From: Acidihalobacter prosperus | GTDB taxonomy: Bacteria > Pseudomonadota > Gammaproteobacteria > DSM-5130 > Acidihalobacteraceae | NCBI RefSeq assembly: GCF_000754095.2 | Contig: NZ_JQSG02000002.1 | Coordinates: 248,001 to 312,000, forward strand | Reading direction: 5' to 3' | Length of the DNA: 64,000 nt | Shown here: positions 21,354-31,053 of the stretch, piece by piece | Numbering within the stretch: the stretch's first letter is position 1 | How the letters are laid out: each line of letters starts with the position of its first letter | Position numbers and translations under genes: made by a program | Notes under the pieces: generated by a model | What the model saw: only the letters and a program-made list of their open reading frames with translations | What the model was told of the DNA's origin: nothing | Databases searched by the model: none

Positions 21354-22478
21354 TCATACCGACATAGGACTCAGCTCACGATAAACGCCCAGCGTCTCCT
21401 CGACGGTCTTGTCCCAGCTCATGAGGCGTACGCGTTCCCTGCCCGCGGCGATACGCGTCTGCCGCTCGTCTTCGTCCACCAGCGACTTCAGCATGGCCTC
21501 CGCAATGTCCGTGGCCGAAGTCGGATCGACCTCCCAGGCGATGCCCGCGGAAACCTCCGGCAACGAGGTCGTATTAGACGTCACCACTGGGATACCGCTG
21601 GCAAAGGCCTCCAACACCGGCAATCCGAAACCCTCGTACAGAGACGGAAACACAAAGGTCGATGCCCCATAATACAAGGCCCGCAGTTCAGCCCTCTCTC
21701 CGACATCGGACAACCAGCGCACTTCGCCTTGCGCTTCCTTATGCTTGAGGGTTTCGATCAGATTCTCACAGCGCCAGCCCGGTTTACCCACAACGACCAA
21801 GGGATGCTCACGACGCACCTCCTGAGGCAGCAATGCATGGGCTTCAATCACGCGGGTGAAATTCTTGCGGGGCTGGAGTGTTCCCACAGCCAGGAAATAC
21901 CCGGGCGTCAGCCCGTAACGCGGCAAGATCTGACCGACAAATGCAGGATCTGGATCTGTCAGCCAGACTTTGTCCACACCACAGTGAATCACCCGAATAC
22001 GCGACTCATCGACCCGATAATGCTCCACCAGTTCGGCGACCGAATATGAAGAAATGGCGATCACCGCATCGGCATAACTCGCCAACTTTCGCATCAAGGC
22101 ATTTTTCAGCTGCCTGAACCGTGGATTGGCCATCGACGGGTCCACCATCGGGATGGCATCGTACAACGTCGCCACCACAGGGCAGCGCATAGGCAAAACC
22201 CGATAATCGGTCGCATGGTATACATCGACCTTTGGATTCTGCCGCCAAAAGCCGCCACTAAACACACCACCCAGCGCCGCCACAGGAAATGGCACGCCAA
22301 AAGACTGCCCGACCGACAACCGCCCCCCATCTCCACGCTTAGGGAAAGACAAGGGCACTACCTGCTGTTGACGCTCCTTCAATCCGTTCAACAAGTGCTG
22401 TGTGTAAACTCCCATGCCGTCAAGCCGGCCAGCGGTACGCGCGGGTTCCAGTACAGAAGTGGACAGACCAATCCTCAT
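21354..22478 (-). CDS. GT4 glycosyltransferase (MtfB/WbdA-like)
   Basis: 374 residues with two Rossmann lobes. It carries GMGVYTQHLLNGL near the N-terminus, VYHATDYRVLP, VGTLQPRKNFTRVIEAH and the EX7E-type motif LYEGFGLPVLEAFASGIPVV. Related enzymes use GDP-mannose or GDP-rhamnose. Its start overlaps the end of rmd by ATGA, so it is translationally coupled to the GDP-D-rhamnose reductase; a D-rhamnosyltransferase role is a reasonable inference. Confidence 0.86.
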   Translation of the reverse strand: MRIGLSTSVLEPARTAGRLDGMGVYTQHLLNGLKERQQQVVPLSFPKRGDGGRLSVGQSFGVPFPVAALGGVFSGGFWRQNPKVDVYHATDYRVLPMRCPVVATLYDAIPMVDPSMANPRFRQLKNALMRKLASYADAVIAISSYSVAELVEHYRVDESRIRVIHCGVDKVWLTDPDPAFVGQILPRYGLTPGYFLAVGTLQPRKNFTRVIEAHALLPQEVRREHPLVVVGKPGWRCENLIETLKHKEAQGEVRWLSDVGERAELRALYYGASTFVFPSLYEGFGLPVLEAFASGIPVVTSNTTSLPEVSAGIAWEVDPTSATDIAEAMLKSLVDEDERQTRIAAGRERVRLMSWDKTVEETLGVYRELSPMSV

Positions 22479-23353
22479 TCTTGGTACATCCAGGCCAACG
22501 TATCGGATAACGGGCGCGGAATTGCGCAGTCAACGAGAGACACCAGCTTGTCACGACTGCCGCGCAGGACGGGTATCTCGTTGGCCCGCACGAAGGCCGG
22601 GTTGACCCTGACCTTGATCTCGTAGCCGGCCAACCTGCCCACCTCGGCCAGCACCGCACGCAGGGCGACGGCGCGGCCGCTGCACACGTTCACCACCTGC
22701 GAACGGACATCGGATTCGAGCAACGCCACATAGGCATCGACGGTGTCGCGCACATCGGAGAAATCCCGGCTCACGTCCAGGTTCCCCAGCTCGATCGTCT
22801 CGGCCCCGCGCTTGAAGTGGGACACGATCTTGGGGATCAGGAAGTCCTCGGACTGCCCGATCCCGGTGTAGTTGAAGGGGCGCGCGATCACGATGGGCAT
22901 GCGCTCGAAACGGGTACGCACCATGTGCTCCATCGCCAGCTTGCTCGTCGCATAGTGATTGACCGGCGCGGGGCAGATCGACTCGTCGAGCACCTCGACA
23001 TCCGGCGTGCCGTACACGTTGGCGGAGCCGGCGATCAGCACGCGCGGCGGCTGCGCCAGGGTCTCCAGGGCGGACAGGAGGTTGAGCGTACCGAACACAT
23101 GCACGCGGTAGAAATCCTCCGCGCTGCCATGCCCGACAAATGCGATGCCAGCCAGGTGCACCACATGGGTAGGCTGCGCCTCCGCGATCGCCCGCCTGAC
23201 GGCCTCGGCGTCGGTCAGATCGCACGAAAGGCTAACGTCCGCACCGCAGTCGTCCTGGCCCAGGCCGACCACGCGGTATCCTCTGTCCTTAAGTGCGGCA
23301 ACCATATACTTTCCGGTAAATCCGGAAGCTCCGGTAACCAGGGCTATCTTCAT
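22475..23353 (-). CDS. rmd: GDP-4-dehydro-6-deoxy-D-mannose reductase
   Basis: 292-residue SDR. The NAD(P) motif is TGASGFTGKYM, the catalytic Tyr/Lys are in NHYATSKLAMEHMV, and RPFNYTGIGQSEDFLIPK is characteristic of Rmd/Tld proteins. It reduces the Gmd product to GDP-D-rhamnose (a 6-deoxytalose product is the alternative). Start chosen at MKIALVTGASG, since the longer frame begins with GTG and lacks a site. Coupled to gmd upstream and a GT4 downstream. Confidence 0.88.
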   Translation of the reverse strand: MKIALVTGASGFTGKYMVAALKDRGYRVVGLGQDDCGADVSLSCDLTDAEAVRRAIAEAQPTHVVHLAGIAFVGHGSAEDFYRVHVFGTLNLLSALETLAQPPRVLIAGSANVYGTPDVEVLDESICPAPVNHYATSKLAMEHMVRTRFERMPIVIARPFNYTGIGQSEDFLIPKIVSHFKRGAETIELGNLDVSRDFSDVRDTVDAYVALLESDVRSQVVNVCSGRAVALRAVLAEVGRLAGYEIKVRVNPAFVRANEIPVLRGSRDKLVSLVDCAIPRPLSDTLAWMYQE

Positions 23354-23427
23354 CTGCAACCTCTGCTCGCATCGGGATTGCGGCGGCACAGCCTACTCGC
23401 ATCCGGCTTCAAGCGAATGCCGGCCCC

Positions 23428-24465
23428 TCAGAACGAAAAACCGGACTCATTCCGGCGCAGGTCCGCCTCGACCATCATCTGGCACAGCTCCTCCAGGCTG
23501 GTCTTGGGCTCCCAACCCAGTTCGCGCCGCGCCTTTTCGGCATCGCCGATCAACAGATCGACCTCGGCCGGCCGATAGAATTTCGGGTTGACGCGCACGA
23601 TCGTCTTGCCCGTGGCGGCATCGACCCCGTATTCATCCTCGCCCTCGCCCTGCCATTGAATCTCGATGTCCACCGCCTTGCAGGCCATGGTCACGAAATC
23701 GCGCACCGATTCGGTACGGCCGGTCGCCAGCACATAGGTGCCGGGTTTGTCTGCCTGCAGCATGCGCCACATGCCTTCGACATACTCCTTGGCGTAGCCC
23801 CAGTCGCGCTTCGCGTCGAGGTTGCCGAGCTCCAGCACGTCCAGCTTGCCCAGCTTGATCTTGGCGATACTGTCTGTGATCTTGCGGGTCACGAACTCCA
23901 GGCCCCGCAGCGGCGACTCGTGGTTGAACAGGATGCCGCTGCAGCCGAAGATGTCGTAGCTCTCGCGGTAGTTCACCGTGATCCAGTGTGCGTACAGTTT
24001 GGCCACGCCATAGGGGCTGCGGGGGTGGAACGGCGTCTCCTCCGTCTGCGGGATCGCCTGTACCATGCCGAACATCTCGGAAGTCGACGCCTGGTAGAAG
24101 CGGATCTTCGGGTTCACGATCCGGATCGCCTCCAGCAAGTTCAGCGCCCCCACGCCGGTAATCTCCGCGGTGGTGACCGGCTGGTCGAAGGACACGCCCA
24201 CGAAACTCTGCGCGGCGAGATTATAGATCTCCGTCGCGCCACTGTTCTGCAGTAGGCGGATGGCCGAACTCATGTCGGTGAGGTCGAATTCGACCAGGTG
24301 GAGGTTCGGATGCCCCGCCACGCCGAGTTCCTCCATACGCCAGAAATTAACGGAGCTCGTGCGACGGTAGGTCGCGTAGACGACGTAGCCCTTCTGCAGC
24401 AGCAACTCCGCCAGATAGGCGCCGTCCTGGCCGGTGATGCCGGTGATGATGGCTGTTTTCGACAT
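23428..24465 (-). CDS. gmd: GDP-mannose 4,6-dehydratase
   Basis: 345 residues. The signature [20 protein letters not shown] is followed by [15 protein letters not shown]. The active-site region reads ASTSEMFG and [12 protein letters not shown]. It converts GDP-D-mannose to GDP-4-keto-6-deoxymannose, the precursor of D-rhamnose here because rmd follows at once. GDP-mannose comes from manC and manB in this window. Confidence 0.96.
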
Positions 24466-24518
24466 GGTTCACTCTCTAGTATCGGTGTGTTGTGTCACGA
24501 ACGGGCGAATAGCACCTT

Positions 24519-25112
24519 TCACGCGGGAGCCCTCGCTCGCCATGCTGAGCATGGGAATGTCTCCCGAGCTGTCGCCTTAGGCATAGGTCCTCCTCGGGGA
24601 GCCAACGCTCTCCAGGAGGGCCCGGATGCGCCGAACCTTTTCGTGGCCGTAGAGTCGGCACCCTCAAACTTCCCCGTCAGCACGCCCTCGGCGTCGGCCT
24701 CGAGCGAGGAGGCCAGGCAGGCATCGATGCCGACGCGCTCCGCCCACGGCTCCAGATAAACGTCCAGCGAGGCGCTGACCAGCACGCATCGGTGCCCCTG
24801 CGACTGGTGCCAGCGCAGCCGCGCGAAGGTGTCCGAGCGGAGCATCCCGTTGATGTGTGTTTCCGCGAAGTCGCGCCCTAGGGAACGCAAGTCTTCCAGC
24901 GATGTCCCGGCGAGCGCCTGGCCAAAAAGCGCCTCCTTGGCGCGATCGTTTCGCGTGATGCGCAAAGCATACCCCAACAGCCAGGGCGATACCGACAGCA
25001 AATCCAAAGCCAGCGGCGCGCTTCCTCTCACCATCCTGAGAAACGGGATCAGGCTGTCCCGATACGTCAGCGTGCCGTCGAAATCGAAGAAGGCGACCGG
25101 CCGGGGGCTCAT
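24519..25112 (-). pseudogene. Decayed HAD-IB phosphatase (frameshift and nonsense)
   Basis: The first 150 or so residues are a good HAD subfamily IB hydrolase: FFDFDGTLTYRDSLIPFL (motif I) and CVLVSASLDVYLEPWAE (motif II). Homology then breaks near 24660, where the family sequence (YGHEKVRRIRALLES) continues in another frame. In that second frame the motif III region reads RTYA-stop-GDSSGD: a TAA at 24577-24579 replaces the expected Tyr codon of YAYGDS. Two independent lesions make a sequencing error unlikely. The ATG overlaps the SDR stop. Normal homologues dephosphorylate sugar-lipid intermediates; this copy should be inactive. Confidence 0.75.
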
Positions 25113-25721
25113 AACTCGAGCCGCTTGAAAACGGCTTCGGGAATATGCCGGATGATCAACATGATCCACCGCCACACTCCCGGCAGGTAGACAACATCCC
25201 GCCGCTTGGCGATCGCGCGCAGTATACCCTGGGCCACGGCTTCTGGCGGCGCCCACAGCAGGCCCTTTTTCTCGATATGCGCCGTCATGGGCGTATCCAC
25301 GAAGCCGGGCTTGATGGTGACCACCGAGACGCCCGCACGCACCAAACGATTGCGTAACCCCTGGAGGAACAGGGTCAGCATCCCCTTGGCCGCACCGTAA
25401 ACGTAGTTGCTCTGCCGCCCCCGGTCGCCGGCGACGGAGCTGATCGCGGCGACCACGCCGCCCCCCCTGCACCTCCAGCCTGTTCGCCGACAGGGTCAGC
25501 AGCGAGATCGCGCTCAGGGCGTTGGTCGTCACCTCCGCGAGCGTCAGTTCGACCGATCGCTCGCAGGCCTTCTGATCCGGCAGCGAGCCATGCGAGACCA
25601 GAACGACGTCCATGCCGCTCAGGGCTTCCTCGGCTTGGGACAGCAGGGCCTCATGCCGTGCGTGCTCGTTCAGATCCGCGGCGATGGCAGAGGTGGCCCC
25701 AAAAATCACGATACGTTGCAT
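25109..25721 (-). pseudogene. Decayed SDR, DprE2-like (internal deletion and frameshift)
   Basis: It starts MQRIVIFGATSAIA and then jumps directly to ADLNEHARHEALL, missing about 45 residues that normally complete the first Rossmann beta-alpha-beta units (junction near 25680). After SLLTLSANRLEVQGG a seven-C run on the plus strand (25461-25467) carries one extra base. The rest (VVAAISSVAGDRGRQSNYVYGAAKGML to VFKRLEL) continues in a second frame. Catalytic Tyr/Lys (YVYGAAK) survive but the cofactor fold cannot. Family members act with an FAD oxidase to epimerise polyprenyl-phospho-ribose to arabinose. Confidence 0.75.
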
Positions 25722-25723
25722 AG

Positions 25724-26190
25724 TCACTCCATGCCCCCCCGCCAGAAACTCGACGAGAACTTCGGATCGACGAAGGCGCTGAACTCCGACCAGGCGGGAT
25801 AGGCAGCACGGAACAGGTCGCCCGGCATGCGCGCACGACCGCATCGAGTTCGTCCAGAAGCCTTAGGGTACTCCGACCCTGGTTCGGGAAATCCAGGGCC
25901 AGGGTTGCCCCCGGCCGCGGGAAGGAAAGCATTCCCGGCGCAGGACTGTGCCCGAAGGTCTTGAGCACCGCCAGGAACGAGCCCGTCTTGTGCCGGGCGA
26001 TGATCTCGAGCAGATCCTGCACGCCCTCCGCGCTGGCTGCGGGCGGCAGGACGCACTGGTACTGAAAGAACCCCTTGCGCCCGTACATCCGGTTCCATTC
26101 CAGGATGCCGTCCAGGGGGTAGAAATAGGGCACGTAATGCGCCAGCTCGGCCGTTTTTCGCAGGCGGCGGTGGTAATACAGCGATTCGTA
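25724..26190 (-). pseudogene. Truncated FAD oxidase, DprE1-like (C-terminal remnant)
   Basis: Homology to FAD-linked DprE1-type oxidases begins abruptly at YESLYYHRRLRKTAELAHYV, just after the glycosyltransferase stop, with no start codon in frame. The N-terminal FAD-binding half (over 200 residues) is missing. A second lesion near 25830 deletes about ten residues (the GGRLYPAKD-type segment with the catalytic Lys) and shifts frame before RMPGDLFRAAYPAW ... FVDPKFSSSFWRG. It ends just before the SDR remnant, which is the normal gene order for this pathway. Confidence 0.75.
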
Positions 26191-26200
26191 GTCATGACAC

Positions 26201-29200
26201 TCATTTCATTGCCACCGTCTGATTCACGGGCAATATGATGGACAGAAGCTGCTCCACACTCTGGCTCCATGTCATCCATGGAATATCGGAGGATTGAGGA
26301 TAGGTATTCGAGTCGTAAAGCCCTAACCATTGATTGACACTTTTCGCCAATGCCTCCGGCTCGCGGCCTTCGAAATAATATGCATGCTTGCCGGCAACCT
26401 CACGAAATACCGGGATGTCACGCGCAATAATGGGCAGGTGCCGCTGAGCGGCCTCGATCAGAGGAAGACCGAAGCCCTCGCCCTCGGATGCAGCGATCAG
26501 ACAAGTGCTTGCCGCATAGATCCGCTCCAGGTACTCGTCGCTGATTCCTTCGAGCCAAAACAGACGCTTATTCATCTCCGGATGACTGCGCAGCCGCTCC
26601 GCCAGCTCTCCGGTCTTCCAGCCTTCCTTGCCGACTATGATCAGATTGGCGGTGCTGCCCTCTTCCCAGAGCACCTCGAATGCGGCAAGCGCCTGGGCAT
26701 GCCCCTTCCGGGGTTCCAAGGTACCCACCATAAGAAAATTGACTCGCCCCGTTGCCGTCCGAAGTACTTCCTCCGCATCAGGCGGAAGACCACGCGATGG
26801 AGACGAATTCTCTATGTCGGCCCCCAGGTGAAACCAGGAGATACGAAGCGGCCGACTTCTCTTCGGATCATTCCTGTCGACCCAGTCGGTGAGCTCATCG
26901 GCAACCGCCTTGGAGATACACACAGCCTCATCGCTCGCGGCCACCACTTCCAGCCACTGCCGAAAGGCGGTCACCAAAGCATCGTCGAAGAAGTGCGGCA
27001 TCAGCACACAAAGCAGGTCATACACTACAAACTTGATCAGAACTCCATGGCGCCGCATCTGCTCAAGGGTTTCCCTCTGGGCGGAGACGACATGCGGATG
27101 CAAATCCAAGCCCAAAAAGACATCTCCGGGATAGAACGATATGGCGTCATCTCTTAAGCCACCGACAGCAGGCTCACCTAAAAATGAACTGGAAAACGCA
27201 TTCGCCCGGAAGTATCCCAATCTATCCGCATTTGCATAAACGGGAATCACGTCATAACCAGATGGCTCATTGTTCAGCAAATAGCCGAGAACACTTCGTA
27301 CGACACGTTGAATTCCGCTCTTTGCATCAACATGAACCAGTGCCGACACATCCACAAACAGTTGCCTGTTCTGCCCGACCGGAACGATATTGGAGGCAAC
27401 GCACCGTGCGATCCTCCCCTTGTCGGCATCAGTGAAATCGCCCCCCCCACAATCAGCGAGCGAATTCAGTAGTTCTGTAACTATCTCATCCGGGCTCTTG
27501 GCCGAAGAAACACTAGTCTGTATGGCTCCGCTCCCCGAAGCATCGCGATCATCCCTTAAAGACGAAACCGCCTCCATCACCTTGTTGTAAACAAACTCGA
27601 CGGAAATGTTTGCCAGACAACGCATTTCGTGCTGGCAGTCGGAACGGGACGCAATATGGCAAGGTGAACAGGAAACACTTTCGTGGACAACATAGCTGTC
27701 GCCAAATACGGGCGCCCATTCTGCAACCGTCTCATGTCCCGCATAAACACCGAGAACAATGAGATCGAGATAGCCGGCCAAATGTACGCCAAGCGAGTTA
27801 TTGGCTACGCAGATGGCATTCCTCGCAAGAGACTGCACAAGATCAGAGAACTCAAGCCCTGCATGAATCGTAATTTTCCCGTCGGACCCGAGGCCGAATC
27901 GACGTGCTTCATCATCACTGGCGAAATAAACATTGATGGCTTCGATGCGTGCATCCTGATCCAGCAACTCGATGAGCCCACGATAATTTTCGCGCCCCCA
28001 CTCCTTAACGTCGTTCCCGGCATGGGGAAAGATTGCCACCGCGCTCGAATCGTCTTTCCGCCGCTCAGCCAGCGCGGGGAGCGACACGTAATCATTGATG
28101 TCCTCAGGCAAGGCATCGATTATGCGCAGCATTTGGACGGTGATTGACGTCCTGTTGAGCGGTGTCGTCTCGAATGGGATATCGGGGTAGGAGGGAAGCA
28201 CCACATCAAGCTTGTCGTCAATATCCGGGTCGAAGGTCTGGTAGCCTGCTTTGTGTTTGGCCTTCACCTTCGCGAGCAGAAATCGCGTGTCTCTTTGTCT
28301 TCGCAAATCTATCGCAATATCGTACTCACCAAGCCGATCGAGAAATTCACCGATCTCGCTGTCTTTAGCGGATGGTGATTCGGCCGATTTCTTCTTGAAA
28401 AAGTCCAAAAAAAACAGATTGTCAAAAACCTTGATCTGCTCGGCGATCGAAGCGTTCCAGCTTCCGACCACTGCATCTATGGTTGCATAGGGATATCTGG
28501 CTCGCAATTTCGTAATGGCAGGAACCGCGAGAAGCAAATCCCCCATATGATCCAGCTTGATTACAAGTATTTTTTTGTTGTTTTGAAGAAATTTCGATGT
28601 TTTCTGTACATTGACAGGCGCAAGACCCTTCACCGAAGAGCCGCGATCGAAGACCCGAACCGCCCGCAGCGCGCGCTTGGCGCTTTCATCCCAAGAGAAC
28701 TTACCGATCTGCGATTTTGCGTGGGCGGCAAGAGAAGCGCGAAAATCCTCATCTACGAGCCCCTGCTCCATTTTCCTGCTTATCGATGAAACCGAACAAG
28801 GATCGAACAACGCATCCTCATAACCCACCACCTCAGGGAGGCTTGTTGCATTGGAGGCTATGACAGGCGCCCCACAGGCCATGGCCTCCAGCGGAGGAAG
28901 ACCGAATCCTTCATGCAGCGATGGAAAAACGAATAATGCACAACTGTTGTACAACTTGAGCAAGTCGTCGTCTTCGACATAGCCGGTCAGAACGACTTCT
29001 TCGTCCGTCAAGCCGCAGCTCTTGGCAGTTTTCAGAAGATCCTTCGCGTGACCTTCCGGCATTTTCCCGGCAAGCACAAGCTGGTGTATATCTCTTAAAC
29101 CATCAGGAAGCTCCGCATAGGCTTGAATCAAACGGCGCAAGTTCTTTCTGTCATCCGCGCCGCCCGTATACATGACGAACTCACGTGTGATTCCGACCCT

Positions 29201-29860
29201 ACGACAAACCTCGCCCTTCTCTTGCTCCGACAAATTCAACCTATGAAACGATGGGTCAAATGCCCCCGATACATTGACAACCCGATGCTCATCGAAGCCA
29301 ACGGCATCGATGGCTTCCTGCCGAGCGCTTTCGGAAATGGCTAGCAGTTGTTGGCTTCGTTTTAGAGACTGGATCTTGCGAGAATAGTGCTCCCGGAGAA
29401 TATCATTCGACTTGTAATTCTCATCTGGATTTATGAGCGGAATCAAATCATATAGGACAACAGCGACGGGAGTATTCCCATCCAATTCTCCAACGCTGGT
29501 GACCGCATCATCCCCATATCCCTCGAATAGACTGGTGATCAACACCACGTCGGGATCTAGGCTAGCAAAAAAAGCTTCCCTAATTCGTTCAGCCACTTGG
29601 CGTCGTTGCCGGTTATTTGGGTTTGTGGCCCTAGTGGGTCCCGGCACCTCCCATACCCGCACGTTTTCTTGTGGAAGAATGCCCTCGAAGGCCGCGCGAA
29701 CGGGCTCTATGGTTTCATGAAACAAGCCATTCAAGGCCACGATGACCTCATGCTCACCACGATTGCGTGCAATCGCTTTCGCCAGAGACAGCGAATATCG
29801 CCCGATACCGCGAAACCGGCTTTCGGTTTGCGCGCCCTGCAAGTCCAGGACGATACGCAT
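26201..29860 (-). CDS. Three-domain GT4-GT9-GT4 glycosyltransferase
   Basis: 1219 residues in one uninterrupted frame. Residues about 1-405 are a GT4 enzyme ([35 protein letters not shown]). Residues about 430-770 are a GT9/heptosyltransferase-like domain ([31 protein letters not shown]; the Cys-containing [12 protein letters not shown]). Residues about 832-1212 are a second GT4 ([50 protein letters not shown]). No membrane segment is seen. It starts at the ATG overlapping the methyltransferase stop (TGATG). Likely builds several linkages of the O-polysaccharide at the cytoplasmic face. Donors unknown; the GT9 part suggests an ADP- or similar nucleotide sugar. Confidence 0.88.
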
Positions 29861-31053
29861 CAATGCCGCTCCTTTCTGGAATTAATAGCTCGATCGAGCT
29901 CTTCGTAAACACTGCGCGCACGCGGAGGGAGGTCATTCAAATCGCATTGATTTATTTCGTTGTTCTGTTGAACGCGTTCTTTCATTCTTCCATATAGTTT
30001 CTTGAGCGGCGCATACAAGCCAATCTTCTTCACAACACGCACGCCAAAATGCCTGAGACGCGAATGGGATTGCAGAAGAACAACACCACGCCGCGCCACG
30101 GGATAGGCCATTTTTTTAACAAACTTCTTTGCCCTTACGGTCGCGCCTTCCTGGCGCACCATCCTAAGCTGATGCGCCATCCATCTCAGGGGGGCTGTCA
30201 TCCTCCAGGATCGACTGCCACAAATCCCATGCAACTCACTTAGCGCCTGCAAGGCCGTTGCTTCCGCCTTTTGCGCATGCGCGACAGCTTCATCTATTCG
30301 CTGCAGGTGTCCCGCTTCATAGCGCATCGCCAGATCTTCAAGGGTCAAACCGTATCGTTGTTCGTAAGCCGCATCAAAACCCTTCAGTATTTCTTCCTGC
30401 GCCGCCTTTTGGGCAACTATTGCGTAGTCCGGACTCACGCCGTTGAGCACCTGCAGCAAGCTGATGTTCTTCGCGGTTCGCAGTTCCTCAGGCTCCTGAA
30501 GCCCCAGGGTCTTGGTGCGCAGGAATCCTGTGTAGTCCGGCAAAAACGACAACAGCCTAGGCGGCAACGGCTGCAGATGCGTGGGGTCTGAATAGAAACT
30601 GGATGAGCCGACGACGATGTTTTCCGGATTTGGCGTCTCCAAAATAAGTAGACCGGCGGGCTTTAACACCCGCAACGCCTCTTCCACCAACTTTTGCAAT
30701 GCGCCAAATGGGATATGCTCTGCCATATGGAAGCCCGAAACGATCGTCTGGCTTTCGTCAGGAAGTTGCTCGAGAGCCTCTATGGCGTCTTTTTTGTCGA
30801 CGGAAAATCCTCGTTCTCGGCAGGCCGCCAGCATCCCTTCATCCAGGTCGACGCCTTGGCAGGAAAAACCGGATTCACCCAGGAGTTCCAGCCATTCGCC
30901 CCGGCCACACCCCAAATCGATTACGGCACAATGGTCATATATGCTCTTTAGCGGCAGAACGAACGGGAGATAGACCCGCAATCTCCCCTTGATTAACTCC
31001 CGAGAACCACGATAGCGATCTTCGAATGCCCGATAAAAATTTACGCCATGCAT
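29860..31053 (-). CDS. SAM-dependent methyltransferase with helical C-terminus (WbdD-like N-domain)
   Basis: 397 residues. The methyltransferase domain (about 35-190) has VIDLGCGRGEWLELLGESG as motif I, then VDLDEGMLAACRERG and FHMAEHIPF. C-terminal to it is a helical, probably coiled-coil part (about 240-280) and the segment GSRSWRMTAPLRWMAH that recurs in O-antigen enzymes. WbdD-type proteins cap polymannose chains by terminal methylation; the kinase domain of WbdD is absent here. Coupled to the GT4-GT9-GT4 gene, so it may methylate the chain it builds. Confidence 0.82.
   Translation of the reverse strand: MHGVNFYRAFEDRYRGSRELIKGRLRVYLPFVLPLKSIYDHCAVIDLGCGRGEWLELLGESGFSCQGVDLDEGMLAACRERGFSVDKKDAIEALEQLPDESQTIVSGFHMAEHIPFGALQKLVEEALRVLKPAGLLILETPNPENIVVGSSSFYSDPTHLQPLPPRLLSFLPDYTGFLRTKTLGLQEPEELRTAKNISLLQVLNGVSPDYAIVAQKAAQEEILKGFDAAYEQRYGLTLEDLAMRYEAGHLQRIDEAVAHAQKAEATALQALSELHGICGSRSWRMTAPLRWMAHQLRMVRQEGATVRAKKFVKKMAYPVARRGVVLLQSHSRLRHFGVRVVKKIGLYAPLKKLYGRMKERVQQNNEINQCDLNDLPPRARSVYEELDRAINSRKERH

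Follow-up and report, generated by a model that had tools for sequence, protein, structure and literature searches.

The locus examined here raises the question of whether Acidihalobacter prosperus has lost a D-arabinose decoration, or whether a row of broken genes records a more local event. The window (the whole stretch of 64,000 nucleotides that was analyzed, part of contig C2) carries on its minus strand, from 26199 to 24519, a DprE1-type oxidase reduced to its C-terminal part, then a DprE2-type SDR, and then a HAD-IB phosphatase, each of them broken. A sequence-only reading had described them as three adjacent decayed genes in their normal order, still readable and each with lesions of its own, and had concluded that the organism lost a D-arabinose decoration. 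The description is borne out by our analysis. The conclusion is unsupported, as contig C1 holds an unbroken DprE1/SDR/UbiA/GT-C-like set, and decay of one copy within a variable surface-polysaccharide locus is then no proof that the pathway is gone.

The lesions were mapped by frameshift-aware alignment of each remnant against three intact references per gene, which recovered all of those proposed and showed the gene order to be that of intact operons. In the following, G000 is the organism's own genome, G001 and G002 are the two congeners searched, and L-numbers denote DprE1-bearing loci. The oxidase remnant (25724..26199, minus strand), delimited by frame-aware alignment and searches, begins to resemble its relatives at codon 26190, at about residue 267 of the 433 in the L031 reference; approximately the first 266 residues are therefore missing, and with them the FAD domain. 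The internal shift that had accompanied the lost N-terminus in the earlier description is a deletion of about 12 codons plus a frameshift at about 25836-25839, by which the GG-x-YPAKD stretch is lost. The lysine of AKD, a catalytic residue, is common to the resident DprE1 on C1 and mycobacterial DprE1 in the alignment of the structure-sequence match. Kinship of the fragment with DprE1 is indicated by its match to solved mycobacterial DprE1 (E 4.6e-14), alongside 101 of 149 aligned residues identical to L030 and a match to genome G064 at E 4.3e-44; the fragment gave no Pfam match. Both of the organism's oxidase copies (L022:10163-11524; window 25840-26199) have alanine where mycobacterial DprE1 has the cysteine of N-x-C-V-D-F-P, which is the benzothiazinone target.

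The SDR remnant (25109..25721, minus strand; Pfam match and frame-aware alignment) lacks 45 codons after GATSAIA, near 25682, when compared with L041, and has a net frameshift at about 25466-25469 within a C-rich run, in agreement with the deletion of about 45 residues and the frameshift read earlier from the sequence. It shares 128 of 190 aligned residues with L040, its C-terminal part matches PF00106 (E 4.9e-12), and its identity of 46-76% to SDRs adjoining DprE1 genes, in loci with a match, marks it as kin to DprE2 partners. With the FAD-binding domain gone and deletions and frameshifts in both genes, the oxidase and SDR do not form a working DprE1/DprE2 pair. The HAD remnant (24519..25112, minus strand; Pfam match, NCBIfam match, and frame-aware alignment ending at 24529) bears the expected frameshift and stop, at about 24653 and at 24579-24577, respectively. 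It is identical to L040 at 96 of 189 aligned residues and matches PF12710 (E 1.8e-29), and its N-terminal part, open to about 24654, passes the HAD-IB profile TIGR01490 with 113.1 bits against a cut-off of 98.3, but the frameshift and stop precede the gene end, leaving the catalytic frame incomplete and the GDxxGD motif in the stretch beyond both. GDxxGD and GATSAIA are taken here as functional motifs of HAD and SDR enzymes, respectively.

A 441-aa open reading frame spanning 24519-25844 is a chance frame that joins the N-terminal part of the SDR, out-of-frame SDR sequence, and the N-terminal part of the HAD gene. At the SDR-HAD junction, stop and start codons share the four bases ATGA (25112-25109), as they do in four of the seven intact loci inspected (L031, L037, L041, and L042; L030, L034, and L040 differ). 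The claim that ATGA coupling had been kept thus holds for this junction and fails for the one upstream, because the oxidase stop and the SDR start are two bases apart.

With the oxidase fragment as query, 23 of 95 genomes, the organism's own included, gave matches. The two matches in the own genome are the window itself and a 47%-identical protein encoded by an open frame of contig C1, where sequence and profile searches define a DprE1-SDR-UbiA-PMT_2 cluster (L022; G000:C1 about 429.4-433.9 kb). The resident DprE1 (453 aa) has FAD_binding_4 and ALO domains and aligns with solved mycobacterial DprE1 along almost its full length (E 8.9e-84); the DprE2-like SDR (246 aa) passes a general SDR model, and a 515-aa PMT_2 protein is GT-C-like. 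Divergent to these three genes lies a UbiA gene (294 aa), which matches the decaprenyl-phosphate phosphoribosyltransferase structure 8j8j (E 1.3e-32) and exceeds the NCBIfam cut-off for that enzyme (266.8 versus 234 bits). The resident DprE1 and DprE2 score less than their NCBIfam equivalog models require (418.6 of 500 and 156.3 of 250, respectively), and there is no phosphatase gene beside the C1 set. PF04030, a poor probe, matched only the resident copy in the own genome. An intact second copy and a UbiA-type prenyltransferase are hence both present, and the unbroken DprE1, DprE2, phosphoribosyltransferase, and GT-C-like genes together make the C1 set a putative polyprenyl-phospho-D-arabinofuranose donor pathway, with homology pointing to D-arabinose as the product.

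The DprE1, SDR, and GT-C-like genes recur in both congeners searched. UbiA adjoins the DprE1 cluster in G001 and is absent beside it in G002, a genome with four UbiA-family matches. A UbiA-family gene in G001 (G001:C1:124356-125089) is split over two adjacent frames and is possibly frameshifted, and a UbiA domain in G002 (G002:C1:701700-702440) lies in a 487-aa frame away from the DprE1 cluster that may be a HAD-UbiA fusion.

To place the remnant among its relatives, named loci were taken from the best 80 of at least 563 relatives, which makes them a sample close to the remnant and no census. The 86 DprE1-bearing loci examined comprise 79 of these best 80 of at least 563 (L048 was dropped, being on the same contig as L026) and seven further stretches. 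Within this sample, SDR genes occur in 82 loci, UbiA in 70, flippase-like LPG_synthase_TM genes in 41, HAD in 16, and GT-C in 14. The 16 loci with HAD also hold DprE1 and SDR, arranged as in the remnant, and 14 of the 16 have the gene order UbiA, flippase-like gene (LPG_synthase_TM/TIGR00374), DprE1, SDR, and HAD (L026, L030, L031, L037, L039, L040, L041, L042, L043, L052, L054, L055, L065, and L074); five of the 16 have a GT-C match as well. By gene content, the remnant belongs to this operon type. In L037 (Pseudomonas duriflava), a pilin-like ORF, so called for its signature, and a 627-aa ORF with no Pfam match (L037:78-2467) stand upstream of the UbiA-DprE1-HAD operon, an arrangement as expected of a pilin-arabinosylation locus. 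The TIGR00374 flippase-like protein of HAD-type operons is a candidate flippase of another type than the MATE protein described in PMC11127046.

The remnant lies in the variable middle of a surface-polysaccharide locus, directly behind the stop of a glycosyltransferase gene. This gene (26201..29863, minus strand; 1220 aa) abuts the oxidase remnant with its stop at 26203-26201 and is intact at its end, where alignments with the best relatives reach residues 393-395 of a 400-residue query; together with a methyltransferase gene (29860..31053, minus strand) it forms a block of lower G+C. G+C is 0.53 in these two genes (0.57-0.58 at third positions) and 0.63-0.65 in the remnants (0.80-0.83 at third positions). 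In steps of 300 bases it falls from 0.657 at 25800-26099 to 0.527 at 26100-26399, a step that is not clean because 26400-26999 stands at 0.59-0.60. On the other side are the minus-strand genes for GDP-mannose 4,6-dehydratase (gmd; 23428-24465) and an NAD-dependent epimerase/dehydratase (22475-23389) that is RMD-like by our reading. The counterpart locus in G001 shares ligase, galE, WcaJ, and GT20156 on one side and wzt, wzm, GT35231, MT36324, wzx, rmlB, rmlD, and rmlA on the other (57-90% identity over both sides); its middle differs, yet it shares gmd (64%). The gmd-bearing locus of G002 has counterparts of gmd (81%) and of the epimerase gene (59%). Neither of these two loci holds a match to the remnants above 60 bits. 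The repeats in 24300-26600 are short or weak pairs only, with no strong repeat at the junction. The part of C2 covered by the window gave no UbiA-family match, and no UbiA, flippase, or GT-C gene or remnant was found among the Pfam-scanned neighbors, a subset of the window's ORFs; the synthase, flippase, and GT-C enzyme that define a three-component pentofuranose system were thus not seen among them.

Taken together, we consider it likely that the remnants are the tail of a D-Araf donor operon that was cut inside the oxidase gene by insertion or replacement of the lower-G+C block and then decayed. An operon for a D-arabinofuranose donor, in intact relatives mostly UbiA, flippase-like, DprE1, DprE2, and HAD, would formerly have occupied the variable middle of the locus. 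The glycosyltransferase/methyltransferase block would then have been inserted or exchanged, and the leftover genes, no longer under selection, would have collected deletions, frameshifts, and a stop, perhaps recently. For a side chain of the polysaccharide formerly made here, the lost operon probably supplied undecaprenyl-phospho-D-arabinofuranose, by a route that may have led from PRPP to a phosphoribosyl lipid, through HAD dephosphorylation, and on to C2 epimerization by oxidase and reductase.

Loss of D-arabinose decoration from the organism altogether was set aside when searches of its own genome turned up the C1 cluster. The remnants themselves would fit such a loss, as would the missing phosphatase gene beside the resident set and the lack of a second own-genome match to the HAD fragment at E 0.001, but the unbroken C1 genes and the retention of DprE1, SDR, and the GT-C-like gene in both congeners make it quite improbable; the loss would concern no more than a single decoration of a single glycan. 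That two copies of the same enzyme families occur in one genome could also suggest a recent duplication of the resident copy. This is barely conceivable given 47% protein identity, and a tree test rejects a sister relation between remnant and resident copy (p 9.5e-85), whereas a wider test does not reject a deeper clade that joins the remnant to the three congeneric resident copies (p 0.263), the groups in both tests having been chosen after the tree was seen. A tree of 82 rows places the remnant without resolution and does not unite the HAD-bearing loci in one clade (7 changes); among the matches listed, the closest row is L036 (71% identity), which has no HAD match. By these comparisons, the remnant is a second, divergent cassette, not sister to the resident copy and with no counterpart in the two congeners. 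Lateral gain is favored, since G001 and G002 each have one oxidase match, the resident copy, G003 and G004 have none, and the HAD fragment matches the window alone among five genomes searched. From the p value of 0.263, it follows that the remnant could possibly be an old paralogue that sister species have lost.

The lesions might instead be errors of sequencing or assembly that make intact genes look broken, as our analysis is based on a single assembly and the SDR frameshift falls within a C-rich run. We regard this as very improbable, as the lost oxidase N-terminus, two deletions of several codons each, a stop, and two more frameshifts would all have to be errors within 1.7 kb, while many neighboring genes are open at full length. 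It is highly unlikely, too, that some fragments are still made and functional. The open N-terminal part of the HAD gene, with its passing profile score, and the retained codon-position G+C speak for it; against it stand an oxidase without its FAD domain, an SDR lacking 45 codons beside GATSAIA, and a HAD motif beyond the shift and stop.

The array, read as the tail of a cut donor operon, is ordinary gene decay and, within a variable locus, a commonplace scar of recombination, and it shows one junction where a D-Araf-type cassette was cut. More tentatively, and with rather less confidence, the scar may mark a surface-glycan switch, in which a polysaccharide bearing D-Araf side chains gave way to one lacking them, with the resident pathway kept to supply polyprenyl-phospho-arabinose to another acceptor; the lost operon might then have been of a type that encodes a HAD phosphatase of its own and, instead of the prototype's MATE flippase, one of the TIGR00374 type. 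The remnant also points to a recurring proteobacterial operon with HAD and flippase-like genes, of which Methylophaga and Chromohalobacter carry intact examples.

A comparison with known systems places the operon type in context. In the three-component systems described by Kelly et al. (2024, PMC11127046), PRPP is the source from which a polyprenyl phosphoribose synthase loads the lipid carrier. The 5'-phosphate is taken off by a HAD-family domain, the lipid-linked pentofuranose is exported by a flippase, and its sugar is transferred to the completed polymer by a GT-C enzyme; DprE1/E2 homologues are reported there in loci of Araf-containing glycans. The remnant's operon type resembles these side-chain systems in its predicted PRPP-derived lipid-linked donor, HAD-family phosphatase, DprE1/E2 homologues, and O-polysaccharide setting. 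The prototype described there makes ribofuranose, with the HAD domain fused to the synthase and a MATE-family flippase, whereas in the remnant's intact relatives HAD is a gene of its own and the flippase-like protein is of the TIGR00374 family, and of the remnant itself only the last three genes are left, broken. The mycobacterial decaprenyl-phospho-arabinose pathway (Rv3806c, Rv3807c, DprE1, and DprE2) is matched by the oxidase remnant at solved DprE1 and by the resident DprE1 and UbiA at DprE1 and Rv3806c-type structures. It differs in its phosphatase, which by the account in PMC11127046 is not of the HAD family, and neither its decaprenyl carrier nor its arabinogalactan acceptor is expected in A. 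prosperus. The D-Araf pathway of Pseudomonas aeruginosa, which serves type IV pilin (Harvey et al. 2011, as cited in PMC11127046), is a donor pathway of the same kind in a gammaproteobacterium, with pilin as its acceptor, whereas the remnant sits in a polysaccharide locus.
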